Shown: piece after piece, positions 1,956 to 37,092 of the stretch | Layout: each line of letters begins with the position of its first letter | Position numbering within the stretch: the first letter of the stretch is position 1 | Assembly (NCBI RefSeq): GCF_000013865.1 | Contig: NC_007948.1 | Span: 1,984,001-2,048,000, forward strand | DNA: 64,000 bases | Source: Polaromonas sp. JS666 | Lineage (GTDB): Bacteria > Pseudomonadota > Gammaproteobacteria > Burkholderiales > Burkholderiaceae_C | Direction: 5' to 3' | Made by a program: the position numbers and the translations under genes | The notes under the pieces: model-generated | Database searches by the model: none | What the model was told of the DNA's origin: nothing | The model's input: the letters and a program-made list of their open reading frames with translations, nothing else

Positions 1956-2047
1956 TTCTTGCCAGTTGCCGGGTTTGTCGCTATTTTTAATGGAGCAAAC
2001 AATCCAAGTGAGGCAGGCCTAAATGCCAGTTTTTTTAGGTCAAGTTG

Positions 2048-2087
2048 CTACGTTATACCGCAGCACCTTGCGGTATACATTACGTAG
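2048..2087. repeat. 40-bp inverted repeat upstream of the QueC-like gene
   Basis: CTACG-TTATACCGCA and TGCGGTATA-cat-TACGTAG form a near-perfect hairpin with a six-base loop, 45 bp before the GTG of the QueC-like gene. The left arm contains GTTATACCGC. The same GTTATAC core ends the attC-like site at 2895-2972, so this may also mark the 5' boundary of the first gene cassette. No partner core sequence or attI could be identified upstream. Confidence 0.5.
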
Positions 2088-2131
2088 GGTCTCAATATCC
2101 CAGCTTCCACCAACAACATAAGGAGAGAGAA

Positions 2132-2893
2132 GTGACCAAAGCTATCGTTGTGTTTTCTGGCGGCCCAGACTCCCTTGCGGCAGCTCTCTGGGCGAAATCA
2201 AAAAAGTACGACCCGTGGCTGCTGACTTTCCAGTTTAAGCAGAGGGAACAAGGCGGTGAAATGTTTGCTTCTATGCTCCTAGCGAAGACGCTTGGCTTCC
2301 CCCAAGAAATCATCGATTTCAAGTCGCCAATGCATTCATTTGAACCAACCGTTCATGTGCTCATGCACGCCGGGACGACAACAACCGCTGACCGTGCCCA
2401 ACACCACCGCATGGAGTTCGGTGCCGGTATGGTCATGGCGACTGCATGTACGTTCGCGGTTTACCACCAAATCGATGATGTCGTTTGGGGAGCAACCAAA
2501 GATGATGTCTTTGGAGGACGGTTTGAGTACAGCCAGGAGTTCGCTGACGCTTTTGCAAATCTCGTTTCCTGTACAACTGGTAGGCCGTTTCGCATCCATG
2601 TGCCTTTTGCTTCAAAGAGCAAACACCAAGTCTTGGCTGAGTTTTCAGGGAAAGAAGACCTGTTTGCAATGTCGTGGTCCTGTAAAGTCGGCTCAAGTAT
2701 CCAGTGCGGCACTTGCACGGCATGTGTCGCACGTCGGGTTGCGGCTCAAGCCTCGGGCGTCAAAGACGCCACTAGCTACCACGAACAGAATTACAAGAGC
2801 CCGCTATCCGAGGCGCAGATTGCATCACTGGATACGCTGTCCGATGAAGATCGAGCGCATATCTTCCAAAGCGAGAAGGCTCCAGTTGATTGA
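2132..2893 (+). CDS. QueC-family (7-cyano-7-deazaguanine synthase-like) ATPase
   Basis: 253 residues from the GTG at 2132, chosen because AGGAGAG lies at 2121-2127. The PP-loop SGGPDS is at residues 9-14, and the QueC-type zinc cysteines are C184, C192, C195 and C198 (C-x7-C-G-x-C-x2-C). True QueC uses ATP and ammonia to convert carboxydeazaguanine to preQ0, which feeds queuosine or 7-deazaguanine DNA modification. Relatives have been recruited into defence (QatC, type IV CBASS). Here the gene is alone, with no queD, queE, queF or dpd genes nearby, and it is directly followed by an attC-like site, so it behaves as an integron cassette. The family is well supported; the substrate is not known. 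Confidence 0.8.
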   Translation: MTKAIVVFSGGPDSLAAALWAKSKKYDPWLLTFQFKQREQGGEMFASMLLAKTLGFPQEIIDFKSPMHSFEPTVHVLMHAGTTTTADRAQHHRMEFGAGMVMATACTFAVYHQIDDVVWGATKDDVFGGRFEYSQEFADAFANLVSCTTGRPFRIHVPFASKSKHQVLAEFSGKEDLFAMSWSCKVGSSIQCGTCTACVARRVAAQASGVKDATSYHEQNYKSPLSEAQIASLDTLSDEDRAHIFQSEKAPVD

Positions 2894-2990: not shown

Positions 2991-3626
2991 GTGAAACGAC
3001 CTGCCCAACGCGGACTGCCTGATCAGCCCGGCGCATTCGCCAGGCAGTTCGTGCTGGATCGACTCGCGGGCTTTGAGAAGGACATGGGCATCTGTCTTAC
3101 CCCTGCGCCGTCGAAAACGAGGGCCGGGCCAACCCATGCTTACTTCCCGGCTCTAGCTGCGTGCTGCGGGACGCTCGAGTATTTGTCGGCCCTGTATCGC
3201 GGACGGATCAATGGCGTGGGTTGGCCCGACGTGGCGAGATGGGCAGTGCGTTACCTTCCCCAACCGGACTATGGAGAAGACGCAGTCCGGGTTCTCGTTG
3301 ATGCCTTCCGCAATGCGGTGGCGCATCGAGGAATAGCGACTGGCGTGTGGGTCGATCGCAACCCCGGGCCGGATCATGGACGCCGGCTGACGTGGAAGGT
3401 GTTAGCGGATAGCCGTCGCCCTTCCGTTCGTATCGTTTCTGAGGAGGGTAAATTGCAAAGCGATCCGCCTTGGCCCTGCGCGTACACACATAGAGTGCAT
3501 ATCCATCTGAAGTCTATGTCGGTGGACATCCGTGAGGGCGCCGTTCAGTACGCTGAAGATCTGCTTCGCGAGACTCAACTCTCGGACAGGTTCTACGGAT
3601 GTATGCGCCAGCTATATCCCCAATGA
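2991..3626 (+). CDS. Cassette-encoded HEPN-like protein
   Basis: 211 residues from the GTG at 2991, which lies 18 bp after the attC-like site; the ribosome binding site is weak. Residues 107-112 read RNAVAH, matching the R-x4-H signature of HEPN ribonucleases, in a helical context (VLVDAFRNAVAHRG). An earlier helix-rich stretch carries ALAACCGTLEYLSALYRG. HEPN proteins often act as abortive-infection RNases or toxins. No partner antitoxin is present in the cassette. Bounded by attC-like sites on both sides. The HEPN call rests on one motif and the local helical pattern. Confidence 0.6.
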   Translation: MKRPAQRGLPDQPGAFARQFVLDRLAGFEKDMGICLTPAPSKTRAGPTHAYFPALAACCGTLEYLSALYRGRINGVGWPDVARWAVRYLPQPDYGEDAVRVLVDAFRNAVAHRGIATGVWVDRNPGPDHGRRLTWKVLADSRRPSVRIVSEEGKLQSDPPWPCAYTHRVHIHLKSMSVDIREGAVQYAEDLLRETQLSDRFYGCMRQLYPQ

Positions 3627-3748: not shown

Positions 3749-4480
3749 GTGACTCGTCAAAAACAACCTGATCCGGCTAGCAGCATTCTCGACGGCGCTA
3801 TTCGGACACTCAAGCACTTAGGTGCGCCGGTAAAAGACTATCTTCTAGCGCAGGTTGGGCTCTCAGCGCATGATCTGCGCATCTTCGTGTCGGGTGCCCA
3901 CGTTCTCAAGCTGGGCCGTCAAATCTCGCATAACCCCGAGATTCCTTTTGATTATGAATGGTCACGGAAAATGACGCCCCAACCTATTCAGATACTCAAC
4001 GCTTCGAGCACGTCTCCCGCGCTCTTGGCGTGCCACCTACTAGTTGACTGGCTTGACGCAGGGAAAGACTTCGCTGCGCTGGTCAACTCACCCGGAGGAA
4101 ATACGCACGGTCTCATTTGGGAAGAGGACTTCCTTTTGCCTGGCATCGAGAACGGAAAGCCGTCGCATGAAGTGCCGGTGCTCACGAAGGGGCATGTACA
4201 GACTCTTCGCTTTGCGTCCTCCCAGTACATTTACGACAAAGAGGTGCATGTTTGGGCAAATCACGAAGGCGCATACCGCGGCGAGCTGATCGTGGGAACT
4301 GTGCCCGAGCCGTTGTCAGCCCGAGCCAGAAGAGTCCTGTCTGGGTCCGTCGAGAACGCTCGCATCCAACTTCTTGTCATCCTTGACAACGAGGAGGTCT
4401 TGCCATTCCTATGGAACAACCAAAGCATGCGCTTTGTGCCGGGATTTAACTCACTTGGCATTACGACGCGTGAGCCATAG
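3749..4480 (+). CDS. Cassette-encoded hypothetical protein, 243 residues
   Basis: Starts with GTG at 3749, preceded by GGGAG at about 8 bases. It lies 16 bp after attC-like site 2, and its stop (4478-4480) is followed three bases later by attC-like site 3, so it fills a complete cassette. The protein is soluble-looking with no signal peptide. Features include KQPDPASSILDGAIR near the N-terminus, a helical LLACHLLVDWLDAGKDF, and a C-terminal VPEPLSARARRVLSGSV. No family is recognised. Cassette location makes an accessory or adaptive role likely but does not define it. Confidence 0.7.
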   Translation: MTRQKQPDPASSILDGAIRTLKHLGAPVKDYLLAQVGLSAHDLRIFVSGAHVLKLGRQISHNPEIPFDYEWSRKMTPQPIQILNASSTSPALLACHLLVDWLDAGKDFAALVNSPGGNTHGLIWEEDFLLPGIENGKPSHEVPVLTKGHVQTLRFASSQYIYDKEVHVWANHEGAYRGELIVGTVPEPLSARARRVLSGSVENARIQLLVILDNEEVLPFLWNNQSMRFVPGFNSLGITTREP

Positions 4481-4562: not shown

Positions 4563-5690
4563 CTGTATTTTTAGTCCCGCCAGGGCGTTGATCTGGCGCG
4601 CGACTTGCATGTCCTGATGCACCCAAGCTCAGGACATCGCCATGGCCCGCTACAGACCGGTTGACCGCTCGCCCAGGTTCATCCCCGTTGTGCTGGATGC
4701 GCAAATCCAGCCCGGCAGCTTTGAGTACGCACTGGACTACCTGGTCGATCACGAGCTTGATCTGTCTGCCCTGCACGTGCGTTACAGTAACGACGCCACC
4801 GGCGCGCCCGCTTATGACCCGGCAGTCCTCCTCAAGATAGTCCTGCTGGCCTACAGCCGGGGCCTCGTCTCCAGCCGCAGCATCGAGCGCGCCTGCCGCG
4901 AGAATGTCCTCTTCATGGCCCTGTCGGGAGACAGCGCACCCCAGTTCACCACCATCGCCAGATTCATCCGCGAGTTGGCCCCCCAGATTCAGGCCCTGTT
5001 CACCCAGGTGCTGCTCACCTGCGAGGCCCAGGGCCTGATTGGCCGGCAGATGTTCGCCATCGACGGCGTCAAACTTTCCAGCAACGCCAGCAAAGAGCGC
5101 AGCGGCAGCTTTGCCGAATTGGCCCACCAGGCTGACCGCATGGAGCGTGCAGTAAAGAAGATGATTGCAGCCCATCAAAACCGTGACAGCACCAGCGTTG
5201 ACGAAGACGATGTGGGGATAAATACCCAGCGCATGACCTGCCTGCAAACCGAAGCTGCCCGCATCCGCGACTTCCTGGTGCGCCACACCGAGCGCAAAAG
5301 CGGCAAAGGCGCTATCCGCAAAAGCAACGTCACCGACAACGACAGCGCCAAGATGGCCACGGCCAAAGGCGTGATCCAGGGCTACACGGCAGTTGCGGCC
5401 GTAGACAGCACCCACCAGGTCATCGTGGCGGCCCAGGCCCACGGCTCAGGCTCCGAGCAAAGCACACTGCTGCCCACCGTAGCGCAAACCGATGCGGTGC
5501 GCAGCCCCAACACCCTGATCACGGCAGATGCGGGCTATCACAGCGAAGCCAATCTCAAAGCCCTGGATGACCAGGGCATACCGGCCCTGGTGGCCGATGG
5601 CCTGATGCGCAGGCGCGATGAGCGTTTCAAAAACCAGGGCAAGTACAAGGGGCTGCCTGATCCGCTTTACGACAAGGGCGAGTCCACCCA
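4557..5690 (+). mobile_element. IS1182-like element, left end plus truncated transposase
   Basis: The left part, from within the attC right core through the 5' leader, is shared with 26791-26860 (65 of 70 positions by eye, no gaps). The transposase gene starts at 4642 and loses its C-terminus at about 5685, where it abuts the PLD gene. No right-hand terminal repeat is visible, so the element is a 5' fragment. The exact left boundary is uncertain because the terminal repeat cannot be compared with an intact right end. Confidence 0.65.
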
Positions 5691-5703
5691 CTGTGCAAAC
5701 TGA
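4642..5703 (+). pseudogene. Truncated IS1182-family transposase
   Basis: 353 residues. The N-terminal domain (YALDYLVDHELDLSALHVRYSND, then YDPAVLLKIVLLAYSRGLVSSRSIERAC) is the DUF772-type region of IS1182/IS5-like transposases. The DDE core is visible at FAIDGVKLSSN and TADAGYHSE. Family members are usually nearer 450-500 residues and continue past the sequence KGLPDPLYDK. Here the last eight residues (GESTHCAN) look foreign and the frame stops at TGA 5701-5703. The stop overlaps the ATG of the next gene. The protein is probably inactive for lack of the C-terminal part. Confidence 0.8.
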
Positions 5704-8977: not shown

Positions 8978-9595
8978 TCACCACTTTCTTCCGTTACAGG
9001 TCACTAGAAGGTCTGGCTGCCAAGTAGGCTGAAGTAGGCTGGCCAACAGGGCGGCTTCTTCTTTTGGGGCGGCCATCCTCGAGTGATGAATCGCTTGTTC
9101 CACAAGGCTCTTGGCCCGAGCAGCACCCCAGCCAGCGCGATGTGCGCTCGTGAGTACAAGCCGGAGGGTGCTCACAACAATGATGTTGGGAACCGCTGCT
9201 GCCGCTCGGCGTCTCGCCCTGCGCTCATCAATGACAACGCAGGCACCGCGGCCAGCCACGGCCAGTGCGGCGCTCTCGCCGTCGTCTAGCCGTGTGCCGA
9301 GCGGAGGAGAGACGTAGCTCAAATAGACCTCGTACTCGTCGTCTGTCATCCGGACCACCTCAAGTAGGTCGCGCGATATCAAATCGGCCAGCACCGGCTC
9401 CGCGAGTAAGCCGGGAACAGGGTGCCGGCAGACTTCGCGTAACGTTCGCTGCTCGATGAGGCACTTGTGTCCAAGAGCATCGAAAATCGCAACTGGCTCC
9501 TTGGTGCCGAGCAAGTTGATGATGACGCTGGCGTCCAGGACCGGCTGGCCGCTCGGCAGATAGTCACTCAGCAAGTTCAAGCACCATCTCCCCAT
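8978..9595 (-). CDS. PIN-domain ribonuclease (DUF3368-like), last gene of the QueC operon
   Basis: 205 residues from the ATG at 9593-9595, which overlaps the end of the metallopeptidase gene by about 30 bases; a longer version starting further upstream is less likely. PIN acidic residues are visible at D21 (VLDASVIINLLG), E54, the D-G-E of DDGESAALA (residues 105-107) and D123 (VVIDERRAR). The motif set resembles the DUF3368/COG2405 group. PIN proteins cleave RNA and are frequent toxins or effectors. Its position directly after an XRE-ImmA protein matches toxin-antitoxin pairs in which a COG2856-type regulator controls a PIN toxin. Confidence 0.8.
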   Translation of the reverse strand: MGRWCLNLLSDYLPSGQPVLDASVIINLLGTKEPVAIFDALGHKCLIEQRTLREVCRHPVPGLLAEPVLADLISRDLLEVVRMTDDEYEVYLSYVSPPLGTRLDDGESAALAVAGRGACVVIDERRARRRAAAAVPNIIVVSTLRLVLTSAHRAGWGAARAKSLVEQAIHHSRMAAPKEEAALLASLLQPTWQPDLLVTCNGRKW

Positions 9596-10724
9596 CCCCC
9601 TGGTGCTCCTCGAGCGCCTGGCGCACATCGACGAGGTTCAGCTCTAGCATGGAAGCAATTTGCTGCTCGGAAAGGAGTTCGCGCTCGTGGGCAATACTTG
9701 CGAGCATAAGTGCCCGAGGCGTAAATGGCCGTCCTTCCTCGATAACGCTCATCTCCTCTGCGACTCGTCGGCGGTGCTCAAGGCCGACCTTCTGCGTGCG
9801 AAGCGACTCGAAAGTTCCTAGAGGCAGCATTTCCAAGGTTTCCATGCGTCGCGTTATTGCCTCAATGGAAACGCCAAAAAAGACGGCCAGCATTAACAGC
9901 TGCCTGACCGAGAACTCCCCTGACATCTCCTTGAGTTCCTTCGCTTTGCGCCGCAACGCGGCAGCTGGCGTCAGGAAGGCAATGCCCAGGAGGTCGCAGA
10001 ACCGCTCAGTGCGGTCGGAGGACGGCTGCCCGTCGAAATGAACGGAGATGCCCGTGGTGCGGGTGACAATATGGCCAGCCTCGTGGACGCCAGTTACACG
10101 CCGCCTGGGTAAAGGATGCAGTGAGTTCAACAAGACGAAGCCGCCGACCTTCGCGTCAAATGCTACTGCGCCGGAAATCCTTGAGGGTAGAGGGCGCTCG
10201 AACACACGAAGGCCCATTTCAAACTCCATCAATGCCCAGAGATTCTGGATGGGGCCCATCCCGATGCCAAAGCGAGAGCGCAAGTTGAGTGCGGCATCCT
10301 CTGCGTGCCGTTCAAGTGAACCCGTCTTTGGAACATCTACGGTTGGCAGGTCAACGTTGCGAGGGGCCTGGCCCAGCAATGCCTCAATCTGGAGGGTGGA
10401 GTTAGCCAGGCGGTTAAGCATGTTGGCCACTAGAACTTCGTCGTCAGCTTGTTTGGCCGTGGGAGAGCTGCGGAAGTGGACTCCAAGCTCAATGTGGGCT
10501 TCCCTCTCGTTGAGGAGCTCGCTCTCCGAGATGTCGTATAGCTCGGAAAACTGCCGAAGCTCTTGGCTCGATACAGGTCGTTTGCCAGCTTCAATTGCGA
10601 CTAGCGTGGTGCGGGCTAAGTCGAGCTTCGTTGCGGCAACCTCCTGCGTAAGCCTGTGTATCGTGCGGGCATGCCGCAGCTTTGCTCCGAGGGTGTCGGC
10701 GCGGATGTTGAGTTCGGTAGCCAT
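9564..10724 (-). CDS. XRE helix-turn-helix / ImmA-IrrE metallopeptidase fusion
   Basis: 386 residues. Residues about 12-66 form an XRE-type HTH (LGAKLRHARTIHRLTQEVAATKLDLARTTLVAIEAGKR). After a linker, residues 214-218 are HEAGH, the HExxH zinc site of the COG2856 ImmA/IrrE family, with a downstream acidic segment (RTERFCDLLGIAFLTP) as the likely third ligand region. Such proteins repress a target and cleave a regulator, or self-cleave, on signal. The start at 10724 is one base from the stop of the QueC-like gene, so translation is coupled. It is the natural candidate to bind the two palindromes in front of the operon. Confidence 0.88.
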   Translation of the reverse strand: MATELNIRADTLGAKLRHARTIHRLTQEVAATKLDLARTTLVAIEAGKRPVSSQELRQFSELYDISESELLNEREAHIELGVHFRSSPTAKQADDEVLVANMLNRLANSTLQIEALLGQAPRNVDLPTVDVPKTGSLERHAEDAALNLRSRFGIGMGPIQNLWALMEFEMGLRVFERPLPSRISGAVAFDAKVGGFVLLNSLHPLPRRRVTGVHEAGHIVTRTTGISVHFDGQPSSDRTERFCDLLGIAFLTPAAALRRKAKELKEMSGEFSVRQLLMLAVFFGVSIEAITRRMETLEMLPLGTFESLRTQKVGLEHRRRVAEEMSVIEEGRPFTPRALMLASIAHERELLSEQQIASMLELNLVDVRQALEEHQGDGEMVLELAE

Positions 10725-10725
10725 G

Positions 10726-12126
10726 TCAGTTCCTGGCGAGGTCCGCGACCCACGACTGTGGGCCGCATTCATCGAGAAATTGTGACCACTCAGTCTGGTG
10801 TTGTTTAAGGAATTTCTCCAACTGTGTTCTCACTTCTTGTATAGGCTCGCCTAGCGCACGAGACAGGCTGGCAGCCTCTGTGGCCACGCGAGTGTTCTGC
10901 GGGCTGTTTGCCAGGTCTGCCATACGCTGCATGGCGCGAATGCTGTTGAAAGCTACGTCGTGGTTCGACTTGTGGATGCGCGGCACGATACCTCGGAACG
11001 ACCCTTCAAAGGTGGTCGCAGTTAAGTCGTCAGCACGATAGTCAGTGGTGTCTTCGATGCCTGTCCACTTCAGGGCAACACGTCGTAAAAGGCAGTTACC
11101 ACACACGCCGCAGTGCATGCTCCTCTTGTCTTGACTAGAGTGGCGGGCATCGTAAGAGCACGAGCGATGGCCAGCCAGCCATGCCTCACTGGCTGACTTT
11201 TGAGAGGCCAGTTGAGCAAGCACTTGGCCTTTCGTCTGAAAGAGTGCAGGGTGCTCGAATCGTACCGTGACGTTGGTCAGCGCATTGACGAGCCTGGTCA
11301 GCCGAGAAGTGAAGCCGGGGTGGCAGCTGCGGTGTGGGGCTTCGTCACCCAGAGGCACCAGTGAGCCGCCGAGGCTACCTTGACCGTTTTCCGGGATGAC
11401 TACCTTCGCAGGCTGAGCCAAGGATGCGCCGTACCCAGCCAACATGTCGTAAATGAAGGGCCTGGACCTGAAGCTCGGTTCGGTGCGATGAGGCTCATTG
11501 AAAAAGACGGCTACCTGGACGGCCTGCATGTCTTTGTCACGCGCTCGCCCCAAGTTTTTCCAGTTCGTCAGTCGGTGGGCGGCTTGAACATTGATCAGAA
11601 TGAGTTCAGTCGTGGAAGAATCTCTCTGAACCTGATTGGCCAGTGCGAAGGAGTCCAGGCCGTTGCTGTACGGCATGAAGACTCGTTCCTGCGCCGGCAG
11701 GTCCACAAGGTGTGCTTGCCCAGAGTTGCCGGGGCGTTCCTTACGCTGCTTGAATTCAAAGTGCCACTGGTCGCCGGTCAAGTACCGAAGGGCGTCGGTG
11801 AGGCTGCCCATGACCTCTGCCGACTGCCACTTGCAGAGGTCATAGACGGGGACCTCGACGTTCAAGTTCCGGGCCCAGCCTTTGCTGTGCTGGCGGTTGC
11901 AGGCTCGGTCGGCCATGCGAACTCCGCTTAGGACAGCAGCGAGGTCATCTTGCAACGGGTCGCCTTCGACGAAGCAGTACCGTTGGATGTGCTCTGCCTT
12001 AATACGGACATGGTCTCCGAGCTTCAGTTTGATGGAATTGTTGGCGCGGCGCGGTGCCCTGTGCTCGTAAAGCAGCACCGAGCAGCTAGCCGCGGGTGAA
12101 TGGGATTCCTGCAGTTGGGTGTTCAT
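10726..12126 (-). CDS. Large QueC-like ATPase with extended N-terminus
   Basis: 466 residues, about twice the length of housekeeping QueC. An unrecognised N-terminal extension of about 148 residues precedes the PP-loop (MPYSNGLDSFAL; S154, D158, S159; the usual second Gly-rich residue is Asn). QueC-type zinc cysteines are C323, C339, C342 and C345 (SCSYDARH...HCGVCGNC). A C-terminal helical tail of about 110 residues follows. It shares little obvious sequence with the cassette-borne QueC-like protein at 2132-2893. QueC-like enzymes in defence modify bases or proteins with a deazaguanine group (known for QatC-like and CBASS type IV contexts). The start is three bases after the stop of the upstream gene. 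Confidence 0.82.
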   Translation of the reverse strand: MNTQLQESHSPAASCSVLLYEHRAPRRANNSIKLKLGDHVRIKAEHIQRYCFVEGDPLQDDLAAVLSGVRMADRACNRQHSKGWARNLNVEVPVYDLCKWQSAEVMGSLTDALRYLTGDQWHFEFKQRKERPGNSGQAHLVDLPAQERVFMPYSNGLDSFALANQVQRDSSTTELILINVQAAHRLTNWKNLGRARDKDMQAVQVAVFFNEPHRTEPSFRSRPFIYDMLAGYGASLAQPAKVVIPENGQGSLGGSLVPLGDEAPHRSCHPGFTSRLTRLVNALTNVTVRFEHPALFQTKGQVLAQLASQKSASEAWLAGHRSCSYDARHSSQDKRSMHCGVCGNCLLRRVALKWTGIEDTTDYRADDLTATTFEGSFRGIVPRIHKSNHDVAFNSIRAMQRMADLANSPQNTRVATEAASLSRALGEPIQEVRTQLEKFLKQHQTEWSQFLDECGPQSWVADLARN

Positions 12127-12129
12127 GGC

Positions 12130-12684
12130 TCAGAAGTTAGTTGGTAAGGCCATGTCGAGCGCCTGCTCGACGGACTTGCGTCGCTGGCGCGGCTTCGGTG
12201 CAGGGGGCTCCGATAAGTTGCAGCTCGGAAGCTCAGCGCGCATGCGTCGCCGTACTTCCCTTGCTTGATATTCTGGATGTTCTGCCTCGATTCGCGCAGC
12301 AACATGCTCGAAGCAGTCCTCGGCGTGGGTCTCAAGAGCGGAGTGGATGACCTGCTTATAGAGGTTGAGACTGGGCTCGGCGTTCAAGATTACCGCTCGA
12401 GCAATTTCACAGACTCGCTGTGCAGAATGGTCAGGGCTAGTGTTCTCCAGTTTCACCAGGCTCCTTTCCAGTCTTTCCTGGCCAAACATGTCGAACTCCT
12501 TGGCGGTGAGGAGAGCCCTCAGTTCCTGCTCCCATGCGGTGTCCCACCAAGCTGCGCCCGAGGCCCAGACAGCCCGCGTAATGGCATCTCTAAGGGTTCC
12601 ATCCCAGCCGGGGGAGCAAGCCGCTTTCACGGCGGCTCGCCAGAGACTGGTTTGCGGTAGCGAGTGGTGAAGGTCATCGCGCAT
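12130..12684 (-). CDS. Unknown protein, first gene of the QueC-ImmA-PIN operon
   Basis: 184 residues from the ATG at 12684, chosen because AAGGAGTG lies 8 bases upstream; longer frames reach into the promoter. The protein is helical, with WRAAVKAACSPGWDGTLRDAITRAVWASGAAWWDTAWEQELRALL near the N-terminus and a charged middle. A basic, proline-containing C-terminus (PPAPKPRQRRKSVEQ) could contact nucleic acid. No family is recognised. It is translationally coupled to the QueC-like gene, so it is probably its partner or substrate carrier. That is inference from position alone. Confidence 0.7.
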   Translation of the reverse strand: MRDDLHHSLPQTSLWRAAVKAACSPGWDGTLRDAITRAVWASGAAWWDTAWEQELRALLTAKEFDMFGQERLERSLVKLENTSPDHSAQRVCEIARAVILNAEPSLNLYKQVIHSALETHAEDCFEHVAARIEAEHPEYQAREVRRRMRAELPSCNLSEPPAPKPRQRRKSVEQALDMALPTNF

Positions 12685-12724
12685 AAATGCACTCCTTACG
12701 TCGTTGGACGCAAGTTTAGTAGCA

Positions 12725-12775
12725 TTTTCGACATTGTCAAATTTTAATAAACAAATCAATGACATTGTCAATATG
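12725..12775 (-). promoter_or_regulatory. Promoter with paired palindromic operators for the four-gene operon
   Basis: Two copies of the near-perfect dyad TTGACAATGTC (minus strand) lie at 12761-12771 and 12730-12740, exactly 31 bp (three helical turns) apart. The first supplies a -35 TTGACA, followed after 16 bp by TATTAA as a possible -10. The second sits just downstream. This is the layout of a cooperative dimer-bound autorepressor, most simply the XRE-ImmA protein of the same operon. Confidence 0.7.
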
Positions 12776-13398: not shown

Positions 13399-13459
13399 GG
13401 GGCGCGCAGGTGATTTTTTGAACCGGCATAGGCTTATCGTTTTTTTGCGATGGAAGCCG

Positions 13460-14998
13460 ATGCCCACAAACAGAATCACTATGCGCCGAATCAGAGAGAC
13501 ATTGCGCCTGCACCTGCAGGCAGGGCTGAGCTACAACGAGGTCGGCCGAGCGCTGAAGATTTCCAAGAGCGCGGCGGGCAAGTACGTGTCGCTGGCCCGC
13601 GTTGCCGGGGTGGACTGGGCGCTCGCTCAGACCCTCACCGACGAGCAACTGGAAGCCAGGCTGTATCGTCCGGCGCTGCCGCGCTCGAGCCACCAGTTGG
13701 CCCCCGACTTTGCGCTGGTGCACCAAGAGCTCAAGCGTGCCGGCGTCACCCTGCAGCTGCTGTGGGAGGAGTACGCCCGGGGCAACGCGCTGGCCTACAA
13801 GTACACAAGCTTTTGCGTCAAGTACCGGTTGTTCGCGCAGAGCTTGAAGCTCTCGATGCGCCAGGTCCACATTGGCGGCGAGAAGCTGTTCGTCGATTAC
13901 GCCGGACAGACCGTGCCGCTGATCAACGCGACCACCGGCGAGATCACCGCCGCGCAGATCTTCGTGGCCACGCTGGGGGCTTCGAACTATACCTACGCCT
14001 GTGCCACCGCGCGTCAGACCACCGCTGACTGGATCGGCGCTCAGGTGCGCGCACTCGAGTTCATCGGCGGCGTGGTGCGCCTGATCGTGCCCGACCAGAC
14101 CCGCGCCTTGATCAAGTACCCCGACCGCTATGACCCCGAGCCCAATCGAACCTACGAGGAGTTTGCCGCCCACTACGGCTGCGCCCTGCTGGCCGCGCGT
14201 CCAGGTCATCCCCGTGATAAACCCAAAGTCGAAGGCTCGGTGCTCCTGGTAGAGAGGTGGATTCTGGCGCGCCTGCGCAACCGCCGATTCTTCAGCCTAG
14301 GCGAGCTCAACCGCGCCATCGCCGAGCTTCTCATCGATCTGAACCAGCGCCCCTTCAAGAAGCTGCCCGGCTGCAGGAGAAGCGCCTTCGAGGCGCTGGA
14401 CGCCCCAGCGCTCAAGCCTTTGCCGGCTACCCGCTACGAGGTCAGTCGCTGGAAGAGTGCCAAGGTAAACATCGACTATCACGTCGAGTTCGACGCTCAC
14501 TACTACAGCGTGCCACACGCCCTGGTGGGCACGACGGTCGAGATGCGCATCACCGACAGCCTGGTGGAGTGCTTTGCGGCCAACCAGCGCGTGGCCTGCC
14601 ACGCCTTGAGCCACAAGCGTGGCGCCCACACCACGATTGCCGAGCACATGCCGGCGTCCCACCGCGCGCACCTGCAGTGGACGCCCGGCAAGCTGATCGA
14701 CTGGGGCAAGCGCATCGGCGTGAGCACCGCTGCCGTGGTGACCTGGCAGCTTGAGCACCGCCCGCACCCCGAGCAGGGCTACCGCGCCTGCCTGGGGCTG
14801 CAGCGCCTGGCGCGCCAGTACACGCCCGCTCGGCTGGAGGCGGCCTGTACCCGGGCGCTGTCGATCCGCTCACCCACCTACCGCAGCGTGGCCTCGATCC
14901 TCAAGAACGGGCTGGACCGCCAGCCCTCGTTGTTCACGCCCGCGACGCCCCCGCTGCCGGTCCACGAGAACGTGCGCGGCCCCGACTACTACCACTGA
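13460..14998 (+). CDS. istA: IS21-family transposase IstA
   Basis: 512 residues from the ATG at 13460; a TTG at 13418 opens a longer frame but is less likely. An N-terminal HTH (LSYNEVGRALKISKSAAGKYVSLA) is followed by an rve/DDE catalytic core: D in FVDYAGQTVPL, D in VPDQTRALI and E in KPKVEGSV. Length fits the family (about 500). IstA cuts the ends and joins them to target DNA with help from IstB. It ends four bases before the leader of istB. Confidence 0.93.
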   Translation: MPTNRITMRRIRETLRLHLQAGLSYNEVGRALKISKSAAGKYVSLARVAGVDWALAQTLTDEQLEARLYRPALPRSSHQLAPDFALVHQELKRAGVTLQLLWEEYARGNALAYKYTSFCVKYRLFAQSLKLSMRQVHIGGEKLFVDYAGQTVPLINATTGEITAAQIFVATLGASNYTYACATARQTTADWIGAQVRALEFIGGVVRLIVPDQTRALIKYPDRYDPEPNRTYEEFAAHYGCALLAARPGHPRDKPKVEGSVLLVERWILARLRNRRFFSLGELNRAIAELLIDLNQRPFKKLPGCRRSAFEALDAPALKPLPATRYEVSRWKSAKVNIDYHVEFDAHYYSVPHALVGTTVEMRITDSLVECFAANQRVACHALSHKRGAHTTIAEHMPASHRAHLQWTPGKLIDWGKRIGVSTAAVVTWQLEHRPHPEQGYRACLGLQRLARQYTPARLEAACTRALSIRSPTYRSVASILKNGLDRQPSLFTPATPPLPVHENVRGPDYYH

Positions 14999-15034
14999 GC
15001 CTTGAACCATCCACCACTGAAAGAGAGAAGACCG

Positions 15035-15772
15035 ATGTTGAATGAACACACCCTCAACCAACTGCGCAGCCTGCGCCTGGACGGCATGGTGCGCGCCATC
15101 GAGGAGCAAGCCACCAGCACCGCCGCCACGGCGCTGGGGTTTGATGAGCGGCTGACCCTGTTGGTGCAGCGCGAGGTTGCCTGGCGTGACGACCGGCGCG
15201 TCACGCGCCTGCTCAAAGCCGCCAAGCTCAAAGTCAGCACCGCTTGCGTGGAGGACCTCAACTGGCGTGCCAGCCGCGCGCTGGACCGCTCGTTGGTGGC
15301 CGCGCTGGCCGGTGGCGACTGGTTGCGCCACGGACAGAATTTGTTGATCACGGGCGCGACCGGTTGCGGCAAGACTTGGCTTGCATGCGCTCTGGCGCAT
15401 CAGGCAGCAAGATCCGGCTTCTCGGTGCTGTACACCCGCGCTGCGCGTCTGTTTGATGAACTGCAAGTGGCTCATGGCGACGGCAGCTTCGCGCGCCGCC
15501 TGACGCAGCTGGCCAAGCTCGATCTGCTGGTCATTGATGACTTTGCAATTTCTCCGATGGGCGCTGCTGAGCGCAACGACCTGCTTGAGGTGCTCGATGA
15601 CCGCGTGGGAAGCCGCTCAACTTTGATCACGAGCCAGTTGCCGGTGAAGGCCTGGCACACTTACCTGGACGACCCCACACTCGCTGACGCGATCCTTGAC
15701 CGCGTCGTGCACAGCAGCCACAAGATCGAGCTCAAAGGCAAATCGCTGCGCGACCAAGAGCAAACCCAATGA
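15035..15772 (+). CDS. istB: IS21-family helper ATPase IstB
   Basis: 245 residues, AAA+ ATPase. Walker A is [14 protein letters not shown], Walker B is LLVIDDFAI, and the N-terminus [16 protein letters not shown] is typical of IstB. The ATG at 15035 follows GAGAGAAG. It forms oligomers on target DNA and activates IstA. Intact together with istA, so the element may still be mobile. Confidence 0.93.
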
Positions 15773-16514: not shown

Positions 16515-18122
16515 ATGCTTGACGACATCAAAAAAACACTCTGGGCGACCGCCGACAAGTTGCGCGCCAATATGGACGCCGCCGAATACAAGCACCTGGT
16601 GCTGGGCCTGATCTTCGTCAAGTACATCTCCGACACCTTCGCCGCCCGCCGGTCAGAAGTCGCCACCCGGCTGGCAGATCCCAAAGACGAATACTTTTTT
16701 GAAGGCGCCACGCCCAAAACCTTGGCTGTTGAGCTAGAAGACCGCGATTACTACAAGTCGGTCAACGTCTTCTGGGTACCCGAAGCTGCCCGCTGGGAAA
16801 GCCTGCGCGCCGCGGCCAAACAGCCTGACATCGGCAAGCGCATTGACGAAGCCCTGACGCTGGTCGAAGTGGAAAACCCAAAGCTCAAGGGCATCCTCGA
16901 CAAGCGTTACGCCCGCGCCCAGTTGCCCGATGGCAAGCTCGGCGAGCTGGTGGACTTGATTTCGACTGTCGGGTTTGGCGACAACCCTTCGGTAGCGCGC
17001 GACATCCTGGGCCAAGTGTACGAATACTTCCTCGGCATGTTCGCCAGTGCGGAAGGCAAACGCGGCGGGCAGTTTTACACGCCGGCCAGCATCGTCAAAA
17101 CCCTGGTCGCCGTGCTCAACCCGCACAGCGGCAAGGTGTACGACCCGTGCTGCGGCTCGGGTGGCATGTTTGTCCAGAGTGAAAAGTTCATTGAAGCGCA
17201 CGGCGGCAAGCTGGGAGATGCATCCATCTACGGACAAGAGGCCAACCCCACCACCTGGCGCCTGGCCGCTATGAATCTGGCAATTCGCGGCATTGACTTC
17301 AACCTGGGACGCGAACCCGCCGACACCTTTGTGCGCAACCAGCACCCCGACCTGCGCGCCGACTTTATCCTGGCCAACCCGCCTTTCAACATCAGCGACT
17401 GGTGGCACGCCAGCCTCACGGGTGACGCCCGCTGGCAGTACGGCGACCCGCCGACCGGCAATGCCAACTACGCTTGGCTGCAGCACATGCTGCACCACCT
17501 CAAACCCACGGGTCGTGCCGGCATTGTGCTGGCCAATGGCAGCATGAGCTCAAGTCAGAACAGCGAGGGCCAGATCCGCGCCGCGATGGTTGAGGCCGAC
17601 GTGGTTGAGGTCATGATTGCACTGCCGGGCCAACTGTTCTTCAACACGCAAATTCCTGCCTGCCTGTGGTTTCTGGTCAAGAAGAAAACCCGCAGACAAG
17701 GCGAAGTGCTGTTCATTGATGCCCGCAAGCTCGCCACCATGATCAGTCGGGTGCAGAGCGAGTTCACCGACGAGGTCATAGCCCGAATTGCCAACACAGT
17801 GGCAGCCTGGCGCGGCGAATCACTCCCTCTCCCCCTGGGACTGGGTGAGGGTGAGGGTGAGGGTGAGGGCTCCCCGGCCCCAGCTCCCTACGCCGACATC
17901 CCGGGCTTCTGCCGCAGCGTCAAGCTCAAAGAAATCGCCCAGCACGGCCATGTCCTCACCCCTGGCCGGTACGTAGGTGCAGAAGAGGTGGAAGACAACG
18001 ATGAAGACTTCGCCACCAAGATGCAGCAGCTCACTGAAAAGCTGGGTGAGCAGATGGCGAAGGGGGCGGAACTGGATCAGTTGATTCGGCAAAAGCTGGG
18101 GGGGCTGGGGTATGAGTTCTGA
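16515..18122 (+). CDS. hsdM: Type I restriction-modification DNA methyltransferase subunit HsdM
   Basis: 535 residues from the ATG at 16515 (GGGAGG upstream). The N-terminal HsdM domain (LGLIFVKYISDTF) precedes SAM-binding motif I DPCCGSGGMF (about residues 209-218) and catalytic NPPFN (about 288-292), the adenine-N6 type. It acts with HsdS as an M2S methylase and with HsdR as the full restriction complex. Odd feature: a low-complexity segment LPLPLGLGEGEGEGEG at about residues 437-452, encoded by four GGTGAG repeats, lies just before the conserved C-terminal helix region. It is in frame and probably tolerated as a loop. Overlaps hsdS by 11 bases. Confidence 0.95.
   Translation: MLDDIKKTLWATADKLRANMDAAEYKHLVLGLIFVKYISDTFAARRSEVATRLADPKDEYFFEGATPKTLAVELEDRDYYKSVNVFWVPEAARWESLRAAAKQPDIGKRIDEALTLVEVENPKLKGILDKRYARAQLPDGKLGELVDLISTVGFGDNPSVARDILGQVYEYFLGMFASAEGKRGGQFYTPASIVKTLVAVLNPHSGKVYDPCCGSGGMFVQSEKFIEAHGGKLGDASIYGQEANPTTWRLAAMNLAIRGIDFNLGREPADTFVRNQHPDLRADFILANPPFNISDWWHASLTGDARWQYGDPPTGNANYAWLQHMLHHLKPTGRAGIVLANGSMSSSQNSEGQIRAAMVEADVVEVMIALPGQLFFNTQIPACLWFLVKKKTRRQGEVLFIDARKLATMISRVQSEFTDEVIARIANTVAAWRGESLPLPLGLGEGEGEGEGSPAPAPYADIPGFCRSVKLKEIAQHGHVLTPGRYVGAEEVEDNDEDFATKMQQLTEKLGEQMAKGAELDQLIRQKLGGLGYEF
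17844..17867 (+). repeat. Hexanucleotide tandem repeat (GGTGAG)x4 inside hsdM
   Basis: Four exact GGTGAG units encode Gly-Glu repeats. The flanking CTCCCTCTCCCCCTGGG is of a type common in intergenic repeats. Because the unit is six bases, length change would alter the loop but not the frame. Confidence 0.85.
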
Positions 18123-19467
18123 CGTTTCTTGGCAACGACAGACGTTGAAGGCGGCGGGAATTAGCCTGATTGACTGTGACCACCGCACGCCACCAGCCGC
18201 AAATGAAGGCTACCCATATATCGCCATACCTCAGTTAAAGAACGGGCATGTTTCATTGGATGGCGTCCGACGTATTTCTCCGGAGGACTATCTGGAGTGG
18301 ACCAAGAAGCTCAAGCCTCAAACGCATGACGTAATTGTTGTTCGGCGATGCAATTCCGGAGATAGTGCGCTTATCCCGCCGGGCCTTGAATGCGCTATTG
18401 GTCAAAACCTTGTCATTCTTCGTTCAGATGGAAAAACCGTCCAACCACAGTTTCTGAGGTGGCTTCTCAATGGGCCAGATTGGTGGGAACAGGTCTCGAA
18501 ATTTATTAACGTTGGCGCTGTTTTTGATAGTCTGCGTTGTAGAGACATTCCTAACTTTGAGCTGACCATCCCGCCGATAGACGATCAGCGAGAAATCGCA
18601 ATCGTGTTGGATGCCCTCGACGACCGCATCGCTCTCCTACGCGAAATCAACACCACGCTTGAAGCCATCGCCCAGGCGCTGTTCAAGTCGTGGTTTGTCG
18701 ATTTCGACCCCGTGCGCGCCAAGATGGAAGGCCGCGTCCCCGAAGGCATGGACGAAGCCACAGCGGCGCTATTTCCAGATGGGTTTGAGGAGTCAGAGCT
18801 GGGGCTGGTGCCGCGAGGATGGACGGTGGACAGGCTTGATACCTGGCTGAGTGTTCTTGAAACAGGACGGCGACCGAAGGGCGGTGTTGGCGGCATTTCC
18901 GACGGCGTACCAAGTATTGGGGCTGAAAGTATTGTGCGTATCGGTCAGTTTGACTTTGGGAAAACCAAGTATGTGTCGCATGATTTTTTTGCCAACATGA
19001 AGTCAGGCGCTTTGATTTCTCACGATGTCTTGCTGTACAAAGATGGTGGTAAGCCGGGTGTTTTTTTGCCACGTGTCTCAATGTTTGGTGATGATTTTCC
19101 GTTTGAAAGGTGTGGCATTAATGAGCATGTTTTTAGGATGAGACTCAAGGCACCTTTCAATCAACCATTTCTATATTTTTGGCTTTGGAGTGATGCCGTA
19201 ATGCATGAATTGAAGCATCGGGGGGGGAAGGCGGCAATTCCAGGAATCAACCAGTCTGATGTAAGGGAGCAGGAGCTTTCAGTTCCAAATGCGTCTGTTT
19301 TGAACCGATTCGACGAACTAGTTTCTCCATTGGTCGGCCGGATATTCAGCAATGCAAAGCAAGCCCAAACCCTCGCCACCCTCCGCGACACGTTGCTCCC
19401 ACGCCTGATCTCCGGGCAGTTGCGGCTACTGGAAGTTGAAGACGACATAGTTACTGCTGCCGCCTGA
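18112..19467 (+). CDS. hsdS: Type I restriction-modification specificity subunit HsdS
   Basis: 451 residues. Two target recognition domains are present, residues about 1-155 and about 225-400. They are separated by the conserved helical spacer LDALDDRIALLREINTTLEAIAQALFKSWFVDFDPVRAK, and repeated at the end as LVGRIFSNAKQAQTLATLRDTLLPRLISGQL. Each domain reads one half of a bipartite target; the target cannot be predicted by eye. The AT content of the second recognition domain is noticeably higher than its surroundings, as expected for domains exchanged by recombination. The start overlaps hsdM. Confidence 0.95.
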   Translation: MSSDVSWQRQTLKAAGISLIDCDHRTPPAANEGYPYIAIPQLKNGHVSLDGVRRISPEDYLEWTKKLKPQTHDVIVVRRCNSGDSALIPPGLECAIGQNLVILRSDGKTVQPQFLRWLLNGPDWWEQVSKFINVGAVFDSLRCRDIPNFELTIPPIDDQREIAIVLDALDDRIALLREINTTLEAIAQALFKSWFVDFDPVRAKMEGRVPEGMDEATAALFPDGFEESELGLVPRGWTVDRLDTWLSVLETGRRPKGGVGGISDGVPSIGAESIVRIGQFDFGKTKYVSHDFFANMKSGALISHDVLLYKDGGKPGVFLPRVSMFGDDFPFERCGINEHVFRMRLKAPFNQPFLYFWLWSDAVMHELKHRGGKAAIPGINQSDVREQELSVPNASVLNRFDELVSPLVGRIFSNAKQAQTLATLRDTLLPRLISGQLRLLEVEDDIVTAAA

Positions 19468-19511
19468 ACACCCAGGGTTTACACGGCTCTTCGCTCAACA
19501 ATAATCTGAAC

Positions 19512-20438: not shown

Positions 20439-20544
20439 AGTGCAGAAGGTGTTGGAGGATCTGGGCATCGTGACCGAGCTGACTGGACAGAAGAAAAACC
20501 GCAGCTTCAGTTATCAGCCATACATCGAACTGATGACGCGTTGA
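20437..20544 (+). pseudogene. Remnant of a Fic-family protein C-terminus
   Basis: A 35-codon frame without start reads EVQKVLEDLGIVTELTGQ, then KKNRSFSYQPYIELMTR and a stop at 20542-20544. 'VL..LGIv-E-TG..RnR.f.Y..Y..l' is the winged-helix tail of many Fic-domain AMPylases. Everything upstream of it, including the HPFxxGNGR motif, is gone and replaced by the end of the GIY-YIG gene. It indicates that a fic gene once stood between hsdS and hsdR. Confidence 0.65.
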
Positions 20545-20589
20545 CCATCGCAAATGCAACAACCCGACAGGTGACATCAGGGAGGCGTC

Positions 20590-34945: not shown

Positions 34946-36946
34946 TCAGGACGGATACCTCTTCGTTTTTTTGTGGGATTCCTTTGTCTTCAATGCGTCC
35001 TTGATCGCCTGGATTCCGTCTTTGATATTGAAGTGGGCAATGGGCGGCAAGGCGTATTGAATTGCGTCAATGACTTTTTTTCGCTCAAGCAAATCTCCTC
35101 CCTTGTCGTAGCGGGCCTCTACCAGTGCAAGCCCGCGGGAATGTCCCATTAGGTCAGACTTTATGGTGGTAGGCGTAGCAGTGGCGCCCAGTGCTGTGGC
35201 AAAGTTGTGGCGCATCGAATGAAACGTCTTACGTCCATTTCTTGGGATACCGAGTTCTTTGCCGAGAAAACGCTCGTTGAACCAGCTCCCGGCCGCCTTG
35301 CCGTAGCCCTTAGCCTTGTTAAAACGCAACTCCGGGAAAAGTCGCTTGTAGCCGGCGTCCCGCAATGCACTCACATATTCCCGGAAGCCCAGGTCCACCA
35401 GGTGCTTGTGCATGGGGACTACGCGCTGCGAACTCACTGTTTTTAATGACTTGTCGGTGGCGGCGCTCCGGTCTGCTTCGTCGACGTCCATCTTGTCTTC
35501 GCCCAACAAATTAAAGTCGAGATAAGGAACGCCGCTTTCACTTGTCTTGATGTCGTCGAGGTAGAGTTGTGACAGCTCATTCAGTCGCCCACCGTGATAG
35601 ATGGCGAGCAAGGGCAGCCAGAAGTAATGCGGCCTGTAGGTGTAGAACTTGCCTTTGGCAGTTTTTAGGCCGCTTCCCGTGGTGAACCAGACTGCAGAAA
35701 ATATCTTCTGAAGGTCCACGTCGGAGAGCGGGTCGCGTTGCTCATGCGCTTTGACCTTGGTGCTTCCTGAGCGTTTTTTCAGTTCACCGCCGAGCCCCTT
35801 GGCTGGATTGCTGGTGATTAGCGTTTCTCGTTCAGCCCACGCGAAAATTTCCGAAATTCCATCGAGCATCCGTTGCTGAGCAGAGACCGTTAACCTGGGC
35901 AAGTTGTGTTTTTCGGCCAGCTCGATCAATTCTTGATAGTCTGCGTCGGGGCGCTTGAATTTACGGCGAACGTTATGTCGCTCATCGGGAATTTTTGCGA
36001 TCTCGTCTGAAAATGTCCGTATCGTGGCCCGGTCTATTTTGGCGAGTTGAAGATCCCCCATCAGTTCAAGAAATGCCTCAAACTGGTCCTGGCGTCGGCG
36101 CACCTGGTCGGCCTTCCAGAAGCCCGCGTTGCGTTTCAAATATTCATCGCGGAACACCAAAAAGGTCATACCCGTTGAAGGCGTGGGTAGGGTGGTCGTT
36201 GTGTCCGGCTGGGGCAGGGTTGGATGTGCCGAGGCCAGCATATCCGGGGTGAGCTGTGCCGCCAGGTCCAGGCGCATGGCCTCAACATCGATCCGGCGGA
36301 TCTGCAACATCTGGCTGTCAACCGGCTGGCCTGGTAGGTCGCATACAAAACCACGATCGGGGGATGGCCACAGCAGGAACTGACACAGTCCAGCCGGTTG
36401 ATTGGTGCGCACCATCGCGATCACTTCTTCAGGAAAGCGGATCCGGAGCAGGCCACTGAACCGACGCTGTGCTGCCGGCCCGCCCATCTTGTTCGCATCG
36501 ATGACGACCTCGACCTGTCCAAGCTCGTCCTGGATGTGCTCCAGAGACTCGTGGATGTCTTCTACCGCCCAGCCGAGCCAGTCGTTCGCCTCGACAAAGA
36601 AATGAGCCTGGCGGATGGTAAGCCGTTGGGCAAGAGATGAGGGGGTGGTGCCTAACGCCTCAGCCGCATCGGTTAACGGGATGTAACCGTCACCAAGCAG
36701 CTTGATGGATCCGGCCTTGATCTTCGAGATGTCCATGCGTTCCAGCGCTTGAATCGCCCGGTGCCAGTGTGCGGCAAGTTCGGCTGCCACGATCTTGGCA
36801 AGCCGGTAATCCCGGCAGCCCGTGGTTCGATGGATTTCACCTTTGCCGACCGCCACCTTCAAACGCGCTGGCACGCAAAGGCGAATATAGTAAGTGCCGC
36901 TGTCGCGGCGATATAGGTACTGAGCTCCCGACACTTTGGTCCCCAC
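34946..36946 (-). CDS. Tyrosine recombinase (integrase) with DUF6538 N-terminus
   Basis: 666 residues, large for the family. The N-terminus LYRRDSGTYYIRLCVPARLK is DUF6538, followed by a long middle part and a SAM-like/core-binding region. Catalytic residues are visible: R in YHGGRLNEL (about 452), H-x-x-R in FHSMRHNF (about 577) and the tyrosine in VEARYDKGG (about 612). The gene begins 72 bp from the 3' end of tRNA-Gly, pointing away from it. It is therefore the likely integrase of the island covering the left part of the window. The C-terminal KKTKRYPS ends close to the helicase gene, which is convergent. Confidence 0.9.
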   Translation of the reverse strand: MGTKVSGAQYLYRRDSGTYYIRLCVPARLKVAVGKGEIHRTTGCRDYRLAKIVAAELAAHWHRAIQALERMDISKIKAGSIKLLGDGYIPLTDAAEALGTTPSSLAQRLTIRQAHFFVEANDWLGWAVEDIHESLEHIQDELGQVEVVIDANKMGGPAAQRRFSGLLRIRFPEEVIAMVRTNQPAGLCQFLLWPSPDRGFVCDLPGQPVDSQMLQIRRIDVEAMRLDLAAQLTPDMLASAHPTLPQPDTTTTLPTPSTGMTFLVFRDEYLKRNAGFWKADQVRRRQDQFEAFLELMGDLQLAKIDRATIRTFSDEIAKIPDERHNVRRKFKRPDADYQELIELAEKHNLPRLTVSAQQRMLDGISEIFAWAERETLITSNPAKGLGGELKKRSGSTKVKAHEQRDPLSDVDLQKIFSAVWFTTGSGLKTAKGKFYTYRPHYFWLPLLAIYHGGRLNELSQLYLDDIKTSESGVPYLDFNLLGEDKMDVDEADRSAATDKSLKTVSSQRVVPMHKHLVDLGFREYVSALRDAGYKRLFPELRFNKAKGYGKAAGSWFNERFLGKELGIPRNGRKTFHSMRHNFATALGATATPTTIKSDLMGHSRGLALVEARYDKGGDLLERKKVIDAIQYALPPIAHFNIKDGIQAIKDALKTKESHKKTKRYPS

Positions 36947-37018: not shown

Positions 37019-37092
37019 TGGAGCGGGTGAAGGGAATCGAACCCTCGTATGAAGCTTGGGAAGCTGCCGTTCTGCCATTGAACTACACCCGC
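37019..37092 (-). tRNA. tRNA-Gly (anticodon CCC), CCA end encoded
   Basis: 74 nt on the minus strand. Acceptor stem GCGGGTG/CACCCGC, D-arm GTTCAATGGCAGAAC, anticodon loop TTCCCAA (anticodon CCC), T-arm AGGGTTCGATTCCCT, then T-CCA. The sequence closely follows bacterial glycine CCC tRNAs such as E. coli glyU. One anticodon-stem pair (position 28-42) is a C-U mismatch. The 3' end faces the integrase gene. Confidence 0.95.

Follow-up and report, generated by a model that had tools for sequence, protein, structure and literature searches.

What a QatC-related enzyme of the QueC family is doing in one operon with a toxin-antitoxin-like pair is the question raised by four genes of Polaromonas sp. 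JS666, found in the 64,000-nucleotide stretch of NC_007948.1 (positions 1,984,001 to 2,048,000) that we call the window. On its minus strand lie, in this order, the genes for a small protein (protein 1), a QueC-like ATP-pyrophosphatase, a fusion of an XRE helix-turn-helix domain with an ImmA-type peptidase (XRE-ImmA), and a PIN-domain protein, separated by 3 bp, by 1 bp and, if the PIN start proposed in an earlier note on this DNA is taken, by an overlap of 32 bp. That note, made from the sequence alone, had singled the operon out as a possible undescribed defense or conditional-toxicity system, and its four genes, their spacings and their motifs are all borne out by the frames and alignments. 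Our preferred reading, which we hold with moderate confidence, is that of a two-module conditional-toxicity system, probably directed against phages, in which a QatBC-like modification gates a RosmerTA-like switch.

Conservation of the four genes

The gene order was kept at 28/28 loci, made up of the window, eight loci on genome contigs, 16 on plasmids and three from a sample of the phylum, and because the order is identical at all of them the four-gene operon is a conserved unit, beyond what a chance arrangement would give. Apart from the window, these loci were found through the QueC-like protein; close relatives are among them (L049 and L056, L051 and L063, L004 and L005), and L095, which repeats L002, is not counted. 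Homologues that occur only as scattered single genes would, by the earlier note, have spoken against its view, but each of the 27 loci to which the QueC-like protein led has the other three genes as well, and the order is conserved far beyond the lineage of the window, alphaproteobacterial plasmids included. A profile scan of genome contigs (36 QueC-like rows) gave eight confirmed loci, each with the four genes in order; judged by record title they are Burkholderiales, and at one of them (L007) the PIN frame reaches the end of the contig.

When plasmids were searched with the QueC-like protein by tblastn, 126 records matched, of which the best 40 were considered; the best 25, at E <= 3e-35, stand clear of the next, and many of the matches listed after them are named QatC. 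Sixteen of these 25 records were inspected, and 16/16, all alphaproteobacterial plasmids, have the four genes in order, with broken frames for protein 1 in L054 and for the QueC-like protein in L055, and with a PIN frame in L050 that lies on the plus strand, where the record annotates another frame. In the remaining nine records the QueC-like and XRE-ImmA matches lie 26-51 bp apart. The XRE-ImmA protein alone, judged on the best 60 of 128 plasmid records, returned as its top 25 (E <= 3e-35; next best listed 1e-11) the very same records, and 9/9 PIN matches fall inside this shared set, which includes near-copies (four from Labrenzia, three from R. rhizogenes/A. radiobacter). On plasmids and on at least one genomic island, the joined QatBC-like and RosmerTA-like pairs are a real conserved unit.

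The cassette is rare, protein 1 being found in only two of 399 genomes sampled from the family of the window, one of them the window's own. In a phylum-wide sample of 398 genomes, matches to the QueC-like protein at E 1e-20 were found in 12, of which four have the cassette (the window's own included), six an adjoining QatB and two neither. A phage-borne origin was rejected, as the phage collection gave no match and the viral contigs gave no confirmed locus with the Burkholderiales alignment as query; a wider alignment picked out, in IMG/VR contig L077, a weak and partial QueC-like relative (27% identity over ~210 residues, E 1e-6).

The QueC-like enzyme and its partner

The QueC-like protein matched the QatC model of PADLOC at 3.1e-41 and QatC chains of the PDB at 2e-21 (9vlk_A) and 9.5e-18 (9zee_B), in an alignment that spans residues 60-376 of 466 and keeps the N- and C-terminal extensions, while the NCBIfam QatC model (NF041925) gave 149.3 bits, under its cut-off of 280. 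The S-N-G-L-D-S at 154-159 is a variant of SGGxDS, with S154, G156, D158 and S159 present in 24/24 aligned rows, as are the zinc cysteines C323, C339, C342 and C345. The motifs and cysteines that the earlier note had seen in a QueC-like ATPase therefore hold, but the protein is a relative of QatC and not a generic QueC. A canonical QueC identity was rejected, given that Pfam QueC (PF06508) reached 16.8 bits, under its cut-off of 22, that the YPDC motif is not present in the window protein, and that the canonical QueC of the host sits elsewhere (C1:749361, 231.9 bits).

In a tree of 43 QueC-like proteins, which is midpoint-rooted and gives no relative age of the clades, 27/27 cassette rows fell on one side of a 100/100 branch, beside QatC, 13/13 Qat rows grouped separately (fork 96/90), and three rows made a third group. 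In the sequence alignment, the QatC motif T278-R-T280-T-H-P falls opposite H265-R-S267-C-H-P of the window enzyme, with both invariant threonines replaced, and TRTTHP occurs in 0/24 cassette rows. Seventeen of the 18 readable non-Burkholderiales copies, the exception being L046, carry a Y-x-D-type motif (e.g. Y-E-D-Y-R-N-H-P) that MAFFT aligns, in a register set by sequence only, with Y-P-D-C-R of QueC. The Y-x-D residues of QueC recognize 7-carboxy-7-deazaguanine (CDG).

These features invite comparison with two known systems. In the passages of Gao et al. 2026 (PMC13279940) that deal with QatB and QatC, QatC binds QatB and requires both its own active site and the N-terminal MGTS tail of QatB; this tail, with a conserved Pro16 and Trp18, is required, AlphaFold 3 places it in the QatC active site, QatB is the presumed substrate of a modification that could not be reconstituted, and QatB and QatC suffice for defense against lambda-vir. 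The parts of PMC13279940 and PMC11996544 on Cap9, the enzyme of type IV cyclic oligonucleotide-based antiphage signaling systems (CBASS), describe the joining of CDG to the N-terminal glycine of the CD-NTase. As in qatABCD, our QueC-like enzyme is extended at both termini, has zinc cysteines and directly follows a partner whose conserved N-terminal tail includes a tryptophan; unlike it, the enzyme forms a separate clade, with HRSCHP (in the window) or a Y-x-D-type motif in place of TRTTHP, its partner has neither MGTS nor detectable QatB homology, and XRE-ImmA and PIN follow. Like type IV CBASS, the cassette gives its QueC-family enzyme a protein partner dedicated to it, and Y-x-D is apparently kept in most non-Burkholderiales copies, whereas the cassette enzyme is more than twice as long, its partner has no N-terminal glycine, and none of the four operon proteins matched a CD-NTase in Pfam, PADLOC or NCBIfam.

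Protein 1 itself could be placed at a significant level in no family of Pfam, NCBIfam, PADLOC or PHROGs, and its comparison with PDB sequences gave nothing below E 0.2. Across 30 diverse protein 1 sequences, with identity to the window protein down to 9%, M1 and D3 alone are invariant and W15 is nearly so. Of 267 homologues, the 120 that were listed (147 being unlisted) have M1, D3 and W15 in 120/120 each and T (77), R (27) or S (16) at residue 2, in a sample found by shared 5-residue words, which favors a conserved N-terminus; in 11 of the 120, database gene models are longer and the tail block is internal. The tails of the 28 loci are free of this bias because those loci, the window apart, were found through the QueC-like protein, and 28/28 start with M-[RST]-D, the window copy with MRDD. 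At 16/16 alphaproteobacterial plasmid loci, moreover, GGAG stands just before a start codon (15 ATG, 1 GTG) that falls exactly at the tail block; the L046 copy, whose profile matches are weak (E 6.9e-4 and 1.9e-3), was assigned by position and start. These patterns make protein 1 a candidate substrate with a specific tail, and not a loose partner, and by analogy it appears to be the functional equivalent of QatB, with no homology detected between the two. The earlier note's idea that the QueC-like protein and its small partner modify something is plausible in view of the QatC kinship and of QatB as presumed substrate (PMC13279940, as above). At the other end of the protein, 13/16 alphaproteobacterial plasmid copies finish in an acidic tail, [DN][DQE]G[VP], that the window copy does not have.

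Tail and pocket also vary together: of 27 readable loci, the 10 with R at residue 2 all have Ala in place of the Tyr, and the 17 with S or T at residue 2 all have Y-x-D, a hint of co-adaptation. That the enzyme instead makes a free deazaguanine-type small molecule, a ligand or signal for XRE-ImmA with protein 1 as chaperone or subunit, we consider very unlikely; the apparent retention of the CDG-recognizing Y-x-D in the non-Burkholderiales members except L046 would suit such a product, but the window enzyme reads Ala-Pro-His at that position, the host encodes its canonical QueC elsewhere, and the proposal gives no reason for an exact, invariant tail. As to linkage to queuosine biosynthesis, which the earlier note had named as a sign against its own view, no other queuosine gene and no queD or queE is named in 12 annotated plasmid stretches, each the cassette with 5 kb on either side (the genome flanks were not searched); in two of them, L058 and L063, a gene named only 'radical SAM protein' lies a few kb away.

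An ordinary qatABCD variant minus QatA and QatD strikes us as highly improbable. The QatC-level homology and the extensions would agree with it, but the 100/100 separation of the clade, the missed QatC cut-off, the undetected QatB homology and the replaced threonine motif do not, and on the missed cut-off, the undetected homology and the separate clade ordinary Qat membership was rejected. QatA (a KAP NTPase) and QatD (TatD) are absent from the operon, ten neighboring frames scanned gave no KAP or TatD match, and no gene of the 12 annotated stretches is named QatA, QatD or TatD.

The third group of the tree comprises QueC-like frames of 637-710 aa at L087:3718-6415, L088:3854-6579 and L020:522-3450, each preceded by a partner that starts MGH[IV].LG..P....W, with P10 and W15 in the register of protein 1 (3/3). 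It shares with our cassette this arrangement of enzyme and partner and differs in the MGH[IV] start, in a TRTTHP enzyme (L087, L088) and in that the 10-kb stretches of L087 and L088 gave no QatB, XRE-ImmA or PIN match. A two-row profile of its partner, compared by hhalign with three profiles of protein 1, aligned in register and gave E 2.2e-4 and a probability of 45% against A6, 40% against A3 and 4% against alpha-a, which is only suggestive of a relationship; the clade is a candidate for a further QueC-family system. Within the window, about 6 kb from the operon, a short QueC-family gene at 2045-2893 (+) has SGGPDS, 80.5 bits to Pfam QueC and no YPDC; two frames without Pfam or PADLOC match follow (2991-3626, 3749-4480), its best-ranked plasmid relative is 31% identical. 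The gene possibly represents a QueC-based module of its own.

The toxin-antitoxin-like half and its operator-like sites

The XRE-ImmA protein matched Pfam Peptidase_M78 (3e-13) and HTH_31 (4.7e-10), and its best PADLOC model was RmrA of RosmerTA (2.9e-25 over residues 14-369), with a further match to capP (1.3e-8); HEXXH is present in 28/28. CapP is a sensor of single-stranded DNA or of damage. The PIN protein matched PADLOC PDC-S70 (1.7e-7), and the four acidic residues pointed out in the earlier note (D21, E54, E107, D123) are found in 28/28 loci; no PADLOC model named RmrT matched it, although which RmrT models PADLOC holds was not checked. Its N-terminal Met-Gly was considered as an acceptor and rejected, the glycine not being conserved. 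Two extra short XRE-ImmA-like frames lie directly upstream of the cassette at L086:2530-3086 and are possibly remnants of a duplicated copy.

This half of the operon is of a recognized toxin-antitoxin type. The relevant part of Makarova et al. 2009 (PMC2701414) treats COG2856-Xre/PIN pairs as classical toxin-antitoxin candidates, and that of Ernits 2023 describes the RmrT toxins of RosmerTA as diverse, PIN-like partners included. With RosmerTA our cassette shares an XRE and ImmA antitoxin-like protein that matches RmrA over most of its length and adjoins a toxin-like gene; it differs in a PIN protein that matches PDC-S70 models and in two extra upstream genes. The COG2856-Xre/PIN operons, as presented in that part of PMC2701414, likewise encode HTH and HEXXH in one protein whose gene overlaps that of a PIN protein, but the described pairing is of fusion and toxin gene, to which the cassette adds protein 1 and the QueC-like enzyme. 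The combination that the earlier note did not recognize is hence known in its XRE-ImmA/PIN half, whereas for the four genes together the open-access PMC literature searched, which included the accessible portions of PMC13279940, PMC13329287, PMC10440598, PMC2701414, PMC12421847 and PMC11996544, holds no description. In the text of PMC13279940 the terms 'PIN domain', 'toxin' and 'ImmA' are all absent, and in that of PMC13329287, supplementary neighborhood tables not covered, 'toxin' and 'XRE' occur 0 times and 'PIN' once, within 'pincer' in a reference. As XRE and peptidase are one RmrA-like polypeptide, the cleaved repressor proposed in the earlier note would be the protein itself or another copy of it.

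In the 25 x 150 bp upstream of protein 1, the palindrome TGACAWTGTCA occurs 30 times (<= 1 mismatch), where 0.07 sites would be expected from the remaining sequence of 24 loci; the count comes partly from close relatives, so that not all sites are independent. At least one such site is found in 20/25 upstream regions, neighbors (<= 2 mismatches) lie 30-33 bp apart, and half-sites number 79 against a mean of 7.0 and a maximum of 15 in 500 mononucleotide shuffles. In the 5.9-Mb genome TTGACAWTGTC occurs six times, twice at the operon. The likeliest binder is probably the operon's own XRE domain. A scan for sigma-70-like promoters returned two sites, against 0.9 by chance, one of them upstream, as the single promoter of the earlier note would have it, and a further one inside the operon.

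The same evidence bears on the main alternative, which we regard as a real but rather unlikely one: protein 1 and the QueC-like enzyme would be a full QatBC-like effector, and XRE-ImmA and PIN chiefly a regulator of it and a back-up killer, with ImmA sensing single-stranded DNA or damage and derepressing the operon on infection, with no signal from protein 1. The capP match agrees with this, as do palindromes that sit upstream of all four genes, the sufficiency of QatB and QatC against lambda-vir (PMC13279940, cited above) and the sensing of single-stranded DNA by PprI (PMC10904395, in the part concerned with it). On the other hand, the genes for XRE-ImmA and PIN overlap by 32 bp and the active site of PIN is invariant, both of which point to a working toxin, and the two halves were not seen apart among the strong plasmid hits listed.

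Genomic setting and joint reading

An exact 23-bp repeat of the 3' end of a tRNA-Gly gene at C1:1975931-1975953 defines a 45.1-kb island, C1:1975931-2021041 (1-37041 being its part within the window), whose right end and integrase are given with the features of the operon in Table 1. Its part within the window also holds type I restriction genes (16515-23694), a PDC-S14 protein and a 2096-aa Hhe/PDC-S37 protein (28625-34915), and, as mobile genes, an IS21 pair (13418-15772) and another transposase (4642-5703).

Table 1. Coordinates of the operon, its upstream sites and the island end in the window
Feature	Position	Strand	Remarks
Protein 1 gene	12684-12130 (12130..12684)	-	184 aa; AAGGAG ahead of ATG; candidate substrate of QueC-like enzyme; family-less
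Protein 1 N-terminal tail	within 12130..12684	-	MRDDLHHSLPQTSLW
QueC-like ATP-pyrophosphatase, QatC superfamily	12126-10726 (10726..12126)	-	466 aa; starts 3 bp past protein 1 stop
XRE HTH + ImmA/IrrE (Peptidase_M78) fusion, RmrA-like	10724-9564 (9564..10724)	-	386 aa; 1 bp past QueC-like gene
PIN-domain nuclease, presumed toxin	9595-8978 (8978..9595)	-	205 aa from the start in the earlier note
Sigma-70-like promoter	12713..12740	-	TTGACA-N16-TAAACT, TTGACA at 12740, TAAACT ending 12713; consensus match only
Operator-like copy, upstream	12760..12770	-	TGACAATGTCA; 31 bp from next copy
Operator-like copy, second	12729..12739	-	TGACAATGTCG; overlaps -35 hexamer
Tyrosine-recombinase-type integrase of the island	34946..36946	-	Pfam DUF6538 41.1 bits; Phage_integrase 22.5 bits (cut-off 27.1, not reached)
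Island right end, tRNA-Gly(CCC) 3' end	37019..37041	-	exact duplicate 45.1 kb away, left of window

On the earlier note's proposed check for nearby defense genes, several copies have them, in counts that come without a random-position baseline: seven of the 12 annotated plasmid stretches name a defense or toxin-antitoxin gene beside the cassette (L046 Shedu; L047 AbiE/AbiJ; L049 RelE/ParE and an Eco57I-type methylase; L050 Lit; L051 a PHD/PIN pair; L056 AbiEii; L063 VapBC). In the Burkholderiales flanks, 8 of 10 frames scanned with PADLOC matched at E 1e-15, the 10 having been chosen by size or nearness from 80 frames at six of seven loci; the matches were a type III methylase and HKD/SNF2 (L001), type I restriction and PDC-M65B (L004), Shedu (L005) and type IIG (L006), and the scanned frames of L002 and L003 gave none at that threshold. 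Two Rhizobiaceae plasmids have a radical SAM protein near the cassette, with an HD-domain protein in L058:8177-11260 and a dGTP triphosphohydrolase in L063:166-3050, possibly unrelated nucleotide-related modules. The 25 plasmid records and the integrase-bearing island would also suit an addiction or stabilization module of plasmids and islands, in which PIN and XRE-ImmA maintain the element, protein 1 and the QueC-like enzyme tune antitoxin stability and defense is incidental, and COG2856-Xre/PIN pairs are classical candidates for such a role (PMC2701414, in the part cited). We consider it unlikely, as several copies have restriction, Shedu, AbiE, Lit or Hhe genes close by and the QatC superfamily has defense proteins as its best-known members.

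Our preferred reading, a QatBC-like module that gates a RosmerTA-like one, would work as follows. In the first module, the QueC-like enzyme would modify protein 1 on its N-terminal tail at the expense of ATP; in the second, XRE-ImmA would bind TGACAWTGTCA over the -35 hexamer, repress the shared promoter, and also restrain the PIN nuclease. On infection, protein 1 would, depending on whether it is modified, act on XRE-ImmA, whose peptidase would then inactivate the repressor/antitoxin, so that the operon is derepressed and the freed PIN protein may cut RNA and stop the cell. A link between the modules is suggested because the two halves were not seen apart among the strong hits and share one operon, and a role in phage defense is probable from the make-up of the operon. 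A more specific version, possible but held only tentatively, is a third kind of QueC-family protein-conjugation immunity. The tag would go onto a non-glycine tail, Met-Arg-Asp in the lineage of the window and Ser/Thr-Asp in most copies outside Burkholderiales, the nucleobase pocket would have changed along with the acceptor residue, and a toxin-antitoxin pair gated by the peptidase would be unlocked by the tag.

Several of our own observations weigh against this reading. Between protein 1 and QatB, hhalign gave a probability of at most 1.3%, leaving homology undetected in a test of limited reach, in which one of two positive-control pairs failed (A3 against alpha-b, 1.1%; A3 against alpha-a gave E 1.8e-10), and with PADLOC giving no hit QatB was rejected as a homologue. 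Protein 1 has no Gly2, the acceptor in CBASS and the presumed acceptor in Qat, and the Met-Arg start of the window copy should escape trimming by methionine aminopeptidase. The covariation of residue 2 with the pocket may go back to just one change on the tree, and the Pfam PIN match, at E=0.013, is below the cut-off. The standard palindrome is missing at 5/25 loci, three of which (L048, L050, L054) have a 10-bp variant and two (L046, L062) only 2-mismatch sites, and 4 of the 12 plasmid stretches (L048, L052, L055, L058) name no defense or toxin-antitoxin gene, L060 naming only Fic. The sufficiency of QatBC against some phages (PMC13279940, in the passages cited) means that the second module might be independent.

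This operon could help to explain how QatC acts on QatB and how that action stops a phage. It presents a natural experiment, in which one enzyme superfamily meets differing partner tails (G2, S/T2, R2) and differing pocket motifs, and it offers a definable output, namely a PIN nuclease together with a putative repressor/antitoxin whose operator-like site can be read. Operator-driven expression and PIN toxicity could supply a reporter for the downstream effect of such a modification. If our reading is true, the tagging of proteins by QueC-family enzymes can be coupled to toxin-antitoxin systems.

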